DNA from: a virus
Direction: 5' to 3' (one strand)
DNA length: 20,023 bases
IMG/VR virus record: IMGVR_UViG_3300044640_000187
Coordinates: 1 to 20,023 of that record
Below are positions 2,719 through 3,473 of this stretch, one piece after another. Below the pieces are notes generated by a model. The model had not been told where the DNA came from. It searched no databases and saw nothing but the letters and a program-made list of their open reading frames with translations. Numbering within the stretch: the stretch's first letter is position 1; every line of letters starts with the position of its first letter. A program made the translations under genes and the position numbers.

Positions 2719-2770
2719 CATACGTCTTTTCCCGTCTAACATACGTCTTTCGGCTCAAGCATGCGTCTTT
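2719..2770. repeat. Three phased iteron-like repeats CATRCGTCTTT
   Basis: CATACGTCTTT at 2719-2729 and 2740-2750 and CATGCGTCTTT at 2760-2770 are direct repeats with starts 21 and 20 bases apart, so all three face the same side of the helix. Upstream flanks also start with AA or nearly so. Such phasing is typical of cooperative protein binding sites (activator sites or origin iterons). The block lies between the scaffold gene and the plus-strand promoter-like element, so it could serve divergent transcription. The protein that would bind it is not evident in this window. Confidence 0.6.
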
Positions 2771-2847: not shown

Positions 2848-2912
2848 GGCGTTGACGAGAGGTCGGACTCATCGTCACTATTCACCCCTCCGGCGCGTAG
2901 AGCAATGGATCT

Positions 2913-2960
2913 AGGGCTGGCACGAGTACTCCGACCTCCTCGTGCTAGCCCTTTGTTTTT
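2913..2960 (+). terminator. 14-bp hairpin followed by a U-rich run (intrinsic-terminator-like)
   Basis: Bases 2913-2926 pair with 2939-2952 in a 14-bp stem with one G-U, followed at 2952-2960 by TTTGTTTTT. On the plus strand this has the form of a rho-independent terminator. The 12-base loop is longer than usual, and nine of its bases match the loop of the upstream hairpin. The stem may therefore be a terminator, an attenuator controlled by the loop pairing, or just part of a larger folded RNA. Confidence 0.45.
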
Positions 2961-2991
2961 CAAGGTGCTAGTTCCTAGTGGAACGAGACAG

Positions 2992-3038
2992 CCATTAGGA
3001 CGGGCAAAGGGGTATGAGAATACTTCACTACCATTAGG
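2992..3038. repeat. Direct repeat CCATTAGG
   Basis: CCATTAGG occurs at 2992-2999 and 3031-3038, both inside the candidate RNA and flanking the GNRA hairpin on either side. Both copies sit in predicted internal-loop positions of the same domain. Meaning unknown. Confidence 0.35.
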
Positions 3039-3271
3039 CTCGCGGCTGGCTCTGATTCCAACCTATCATCCAGCGTCCGTTATAGGCTTTAATCCGAAGC
3101 GGGGGGAAGAGCGCACAACCGAATTGGGTCTCTAGAGATAGGGGTTCCACATGGTAGACCACGAATCATAGGGCTTGTTAAAACGGCCCTAAGAGGTTGG
3201 TGTGTCTTTTTCCTCTCGGAGGGAAGTTTGATCGAGCGTAAGCGAGGTGACTGTCTTAATTAAAGGTCACA

Positions 3272-3336
3272 AGTATAAGTCAAGTGTAAGTCAACTTAAC
3301 CTTTAGTAACGCTAAGTACCATGCTTAAGTACCATG
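3272..3336. repeat. Two short direct-repeat pairs near the operon terminator
   Basis: AGTATAAGTCA (3272-3282) and AGTGTAAGTCA (3283-3293) are tandem 11-base units differing at one base. TAAGTACCATG occurs at 3313-3323 and again at 3326-3336 with two bases between. The AAGTCA core matches the repeats near 2576-2606. They may be regulator sites or remnants of slippage. Confidence 0.45.
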
Positions 3337-3344
3337 TAGCATGG

Positions 3345-3382
3345 GACAAAAGAAAAGGCCACAGATTTTAACCTGTGACCTT
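3345..3382 (-). terminator. Intrinsic terminator of the packaging/portal operon
   Basis: On the minus strand, bases 3382-3373 and 3364-3355 form a 10-bp stem around an 8-base loop, followed by TTCTTTTGT. One pair (3359-3378) is G-U on the minus strand but a C-A mismatch on the plus strand, which supports minus-strand use. It lies about 90 bases after the stop of the last small gene at 3474, so it ends the long operon and implies that the scaffold-capsid genes need their own promoter. Confidence 0.75.
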
Positions 3383-3473
3383 CTCCCAAACTATGAACGA
3401 TGAAACGAAACAAAACACCTACCGAAGCAGGTTCGAGAAATGCTTAGACCATTCTAGCGGGTTTGTCAAGCAG

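Follow-up and report, generated by a model that had tools for sequence, protein, structure and literature searches.

The question raised by this locus is what three short and evenly spaced repeats do in the gap in front of the structural genes of a phage. The window, the 20,023-nucleotide stretch of viral DNA analysed here, covers part of the roughly 40-kb genome of a tailed phage with an SU10-type capsid; its relative G002 is 39.6 kb long and has identical 127-bp ends. The first-pass annotation had described three iteron-like repeats in one orientation, spaced at whole helical turns and lying next to two palindromes, and this description is borne out. The word CATRCGTCTTT occurs on the same strand at 2719, 2740 and 2760, with steps of 21 and 20 bp, close to two turns of the helix. 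The 20-kb record contains no other exact match, so that the word clusters solely here. The arrangement is beyond chance, as no 11-mer occurred three times within 55 bp in any of 100 dinucleotide-shuffled windows. The only other triple cluster of an 11-mer in the real window, at 2308, comes from repetition at the codon level in the acidic stretch of the scaffold gene. Read along the gene strand, which is the minus strand, copy 1 (2760-2770) is AAAGACGCATG, while copy 2 (2740-2750) and copy 3 (2719-2729) are both AAAGACGTATG; the corresponding plus-strand letters are CATGCGTCTTT for copy 1 and CATACGTCTTT for the other two. The palindrome adjoining the repeats, GGGTTAGCCTAACCC (2772-2786), is decayed in several relatives, and the second, GGCCGCAAATTGCGACC (2789-2805), contains one imperfect pair and reads GTCGCAATTTGCGAC or ATCACAATTTGTGAT in relatives.

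The main genes of the window all lie on the minus strand, in the order small and large terminase, portal, small ORFs, a 930-nt gap, scaffold and capsid, and the repeats are inside the gap. The scaffold gene is probably just that, judging from gene order; no family model matched its protein. Following the minus strand, the gap begins with two terminator-like hairpins (3432-3349), both with T-rich tails, of which ACCTGCTTCGGTAGGT is at 3407-3432 and AAGGTCACAG/CTGTGGCCTT at 3349-3382, upstream of a structured RNA. Next is a conserved promoter-like stretch, GTTGACTTACACTTGACTTA (3276-3295), directly 5' of this RNA (about 3255-2849) and common to its type A and type B alleles. The palindromes and repeats (2805-2719) come after the RNA on its 3' side, and are followed by two hairpins (2701-2639), GTGACAAAT-N10-ATTT(A/G)TCAC at 2674-2701 and TGTCAGAAA-N12-TTTCTGACA at 2639-2668, whose stems are kept in relatives despite sequence change. 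About 115 bp downstream of the repeats is the promoter-like element of the scaffold gene, TTGACT-N17-TTGACT (2605-2577). A promoter area for the scaffold and capsid genes had been suspected near the block, and the relatives agree with this: nearly all 99 forms compared have TTGAC[AT] at 66-78 nt upstream of the scaffold ATG, and 97 have it within 110 nt, where 2.75 would be expected. This element passes a sigma70 -35 test, with a TTGACA-like hexamer at a near-fixed distance, and its -10 hexamer is poor. Our search of the relatives for a T7-like RNA polymerase gave no match, and its control likewise matched nowhere.

The data are metagenomic contigs, and searches for the wider context of the locus gave little. 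No tRNA genes were found in the window, a blastn-level search of 50,697 phage records with the non-coding region gave no match, a portal search of genome contigs for the host gave no match, and a literature search found no description of the locus. The comparison relies on capsid and portal searches, which gave about 160 loci, with the gap from a 67-aa ORF to scaffold extracted in 99 distinct forms. In the capsid gene itself (490-1476 in the window, and in relatives) we observed an extreme bias at fourfold sites in G007 and G010, unlike the neighbouring genes, with T and C favoured and A nearly absent.

Whether the repeats matter to the phage can be judged in part from how they are kept. A degenerate pattern (AAAGAYRYRYG three times with 9-10 nt linkers) found the triple array in just 10 of the 2.9 million viral contigs of IMG/VR, every one from this phage group and with the array adjoining scaffold; the same contigs had also surfaced as members of the group. 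The block is known in 11 distinct sequences, with three copies, or four in L006, and the 20/21 spacing holds without exception and without an indel. The AAAGA core is nearly invariant, as is the best conserved part of the block, a 6-bp hairpin (GACGCA/TGCGTC) formed by copy 3 and the following TTTTTGCGTC. At positions 6-10 of copy 2 the variation in relatives consists of transitions only. The comparison of spacing in relatives proposed by the first-pass annotation thus came out in two parts: the spacing is constant where the block is present, but the presence is patchy. Within the window's own clade 10 of 24 members carry the block and 14 do not, and L027, with a portal identical to that of the window, is without it. 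Members with the block are scattered across the portal tree (7 changes against a shuffled mean of 7.9), a tree that was built quickly and has weak support at many of its forks around the window, and presence is independent of the RNA type.

The repeats share the gap with other specialised elements. A second iterated element, CTTTTCTCCGAC, with a 12-bp step and 3-4 copies, occupies the same spacer in L020, L028, L199, L214, L216 and L239, and in these relatives' spacers it is accompanied by the DnaA-box-like TTATCCACA. Across 81 distinct loci the repeats and the other iteron family are nearly confined to the spacer (iteron A 17/17, iteron B 39/39), and so are the hairpins (34/34 and 55/59 occurrences). 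Iterated or hairpin elements occur in 32 of 59 gaps that bear the RNA and in 0 of 40 that lack it, a contrast that is inflated by shared ancestry, which confounds the association of array and RNA. At the other extreme, L025 and L099 have a spacer of 104-109 nt without repeats, palindromes, hairpins, iterons or DnaA boxes.

The structured RNA that adjoins the array on its 5' side turned out to be the more important discovery. It is about 400 nt long (2849-3255, minus strand), with a 5' end estimated as the point where relatives stop aligning, and gave no match in Rfam at gathering or permissive thresholds for the window or relatives; weak matches to mir-3, ctRNA_p42d and StyR-3 were far below their own thresholds and were rejected as chance. 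Its constant 3' domain (2849-2960) consists of hairpin P1 (loop GAGGTCGGA), P2 and hairpin P3 (loop TCCGACCTC), and the P1 and P3 loops are complementary over 8-9 bp. These loop pairs diverge yet stay complementary, from GAGGTCGGA/TCCGACCTC to AGACGGGGG/CCCCCGTCT, CGACCGAAA/TTTCGGTCG and GGAATGAGC/GCTCATTCC. In 38 sequences the structure has 85% standard pairs, a percentage biased by the structure having been written by hand, with its pseudoknot, from the same sequences, and changes on both sides are found in 24 of 31 pairs. Because of this bias the case for loop pairing rests on the double-change counts (129 cells, where shuffles gave 43±8 and slid controls no more than 44) and on the widely different loop sequences. 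The covariation fits pairing within or between molecules alike, and the G-U pairs fit the minus strand. RNAalifold found almost no structure in the first long alignment of the domain, for which misaligned ends are the probable cause. A covariance model, with E-values from a shortened calibration, finds the domain as a single copy per genome (window minus strand, E 1.9e-34) and matched neither phage C75C1 nor any of the RNA-less genomes searched; weak matches on the opposite strand are the domain's own mirror image. One locus, L112 (10343-10454), has a loop pair with one mismatch (GAGGTCGGA vs TCCTACTTC), which points either to natural recombination inside the 3' domain or to a chimeric assembly. 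Among the 99 gaps the 3' domain is present in 59 and missing from 40, and 34 of the 40 RNA-less gaps are just 87-257 nt long.

Upstream of this constant part the RNA is exchangeable. The 5' domain of the window, type A (2961-3255, minus strand), is replaced in relatives by the unrelated types B, C or D, which gives at least four types at one fixed site. What types A, B and C have in common is limited to the 3' domain and the upstream stretch, and type D is detected by its own profile and by no A, B or C profile. Searches with DNA patterns gave 35 stretches for type A, 37 for B, 16 for C and 10 for D. Every one that is not cut by a contig end adjoins the 3' domain and, as judged by neighbouring genes, sits between the 67-aa ORF and scaffold. 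The types are mutually exclusive, with no gap holding two, and at least 16 switches between them are needed on the portal tree. Folding exceeds that of column-shuffled alignments for type A (z -8.1, with 20 covarying pairs) and type B (z -4.8), while the type C alignment is too uniform to judge. In L068 and L070 (4726-4836) the 3' domain occurs without any of the four 5' types and with unrelated ORFs upstream.

Several mobile-type genes were seen at the same place. HNH or endonuclease VII-like genes occur at the RNA locus of L239 and L021, and a T5orf172-like gene, which we take to belong to the GIY-YIG clan, at that of L004. Nuclease-type genes lie beside the RNA on the opposite strand and 5' of it in L239, L151, L140 and L019, on the 5' side in L004, and on the 3' side in L021 and L207. 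Homing-type cleavage is a possible driver of the exchange of 5' domains. A gene of 161-163 aa with a weak sigma70 region 4-like HTH, absent from the window, is found divergent upstream of the RNA across types A-D, in the gaps of L004, L005, L012, L014, L015, L025, L112 and L080.

For the repeats themselves, the reading we prefer, with a probability of about 0.4, is an array that is optional and specific to this locus, flanking on the 3' side a structured non-coding RNA gene which some phages of the group have between the genes on the portal side and the scaffold-capsid operon. The RNA would be its own transcription unit between the terminators and the scaffold promoter. A protein of the phage or the host may bind the array and its palindromes along one face of the DNA, and the bound array could tune transcription through or after the RNA into scaffold and capsid. 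Relatives might use different arrays for the same role, the 20/21-bp AAAGACGYATG in some and the 12-bp CTTTTCTCCGAC in others. Fixed spacing and confinement to the spacer argue for a function, patchy presence and loose copies for an accessory one, and any effect is likely to be modest since close relatives do without the array. The free transitions at positions 6-10 of copy 2 look unlike a tightly read operator and count against this explanation, as does the lack of any link between presence of the array and RNA type. Pairing of the repeats with the RNA was also considered and rejected, as there is just a short AAAGAC resemblance at 3200-3214 that is lost in distant type A members.

The same patchiness, together with copy numbers of 3 or 4, the decay of copies 1 and 2 and the frequent swapping of neighbouring modules, would be expected of a neutral short tandem duplication spread by recombination in a mosaic spacer. 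We regard this as unlikely, since the 11 distinct sequences contain no indel in the 20/21 spacing, the AAAGA core and the copy 3 hairpin are nearly invariant and many specialised elements are packed into the spacer. It is also quite unlikely that the arrays are replication-origin iterons, at which a phage initiator or host DnaA would bind and open the DNA in the spacer, the iteron family varying from one phage lineage to another as it does in other modular replicons. An iteron origin should have several direct repeats of about 20 bp that all point the same way, as they do here. The spacer is also home to two iterated families unrelated to each other, one of them with the DnaA-box-like element, and a DnaC-like loader ORF in G002, judged by eye, suggests helicase loading. 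The satellite PLE likewise has three iterons in a non-coding region with abundant non-coding transcripts (PMC8263062, PMC7567579). However, the 14 of 24 close relatives without the block would be expected to replicate alike, the RNA-less relatives have none of these elements, and no DnaA box was found near the array in the window. The cumulative GC-skew maximum at this region in G002 and G007 was rejected as an origin test, being confounded by the strong codon bias at scaffold and capsid fourfold sites. Skew maxima normally mark termini.

Improbable too is that the block acts as RNA, in the form of a transcribed 3' hairpin tail serving to stop, process or protect the RNA upstream of it. It lies on the same strand as that RNA, the 300-nt flank folds better than shuffles (z -2.8), and both the copy 3 hairpin and the neighbouring stems kept through sequence change would suit such a tail, but a U-tract terminator is absent, no conserved partner exists for copies 1 and 2, and DNA palindromes account for the same signals. 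A switch for divergent transcription or a packaging (pac/cos) site, as the first-pass annotation had offered, is largely refuted. Tandem sites near a promoter and a position within the late gene cluster had made it attractive, yet the main genes are on one strand, the small terminase gene is 6 kb off and the block is missing from the nearest relatives with near-identical portal genes. The bare 104-109-nt spacers of L025 and L099 speak against an origin and a packaging site alike.

By themselves the repeats are a small optional feature, and there is nothing unusual in optional tandem sites close to a promoter. The RNA, in contrast, combines strong covariation, a single copy and a fixed site with unrelated 5' domains in close relatives, and to our knowledge outright exchange of unrelated RNA 5' domains has not been described. 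The interchangeable 5' domain suggests that a specificity which varies, for a target or partner, is shown on a constant scaffold domain, and rapid whole-domain exchange beside capsid genes suggests that a changing partner exerts the selection. We tentatively see here an allelic RNA locus, in which a constant kissing-loop domain carries at least four recombination-swapped 5' domains that set specificity and the repeats belong to the regulatory flank. The specificity would be towards a host factor, a defence system or a rival phage, and the swapping is possibly driven by the neighbouring homing-type endonucleases. If true, the 5' domain would be an RNA counterpart of swappable protein specificity modules. 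Such a modular RNA offers a direct and testable entry to what large phage RNAs do.

Comparison with known systems helps to place both parts of the locus. The array resembles iteron-type origins in its direct repeats near two helical turns apart, but it is optional and has neither a DnaA box nor an AT-rich unwinding element tied to it in the window. The pRNA of phi29 is a phage RNA with complementary hairpin loops, as is the window RNA, which is encoded beside portal and scaffold genes; unlike pRNA, the latter has no Rfam match and is not a required motor part, since the 40 of 99 relatives that lack it keep the same portal-scaffold neighbourhood. ICP1 produces an orphan transcript of about 800 nt, and PLE an abundant non-coding transcript and three iterons in its non-coding region that swap with replicon type (PMC7567579, PMC8263062), but the phage here is another one and its iterons are dispensable in relatives. 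ROOL, a phage and prophage RNA with conserved kissing loops (PMC12286853), shares the conserved loop pairing and differs in site, size and the Rfam match that ours lacks. In plan the RNA resembles GOLLD, the large ornate phage RNA, where the 3' region is conserved and the 5' region less so (PMC12286853), much as the window RNA has a constant 3' domain and a 5' part that varies. The window RNA is about 400 nt rather than more than 800, without an Rfam match and without the tRNA genes that are frequent, though not universal, at GOLLD, and its 5' domains are outright unrelated, interchangeable types.
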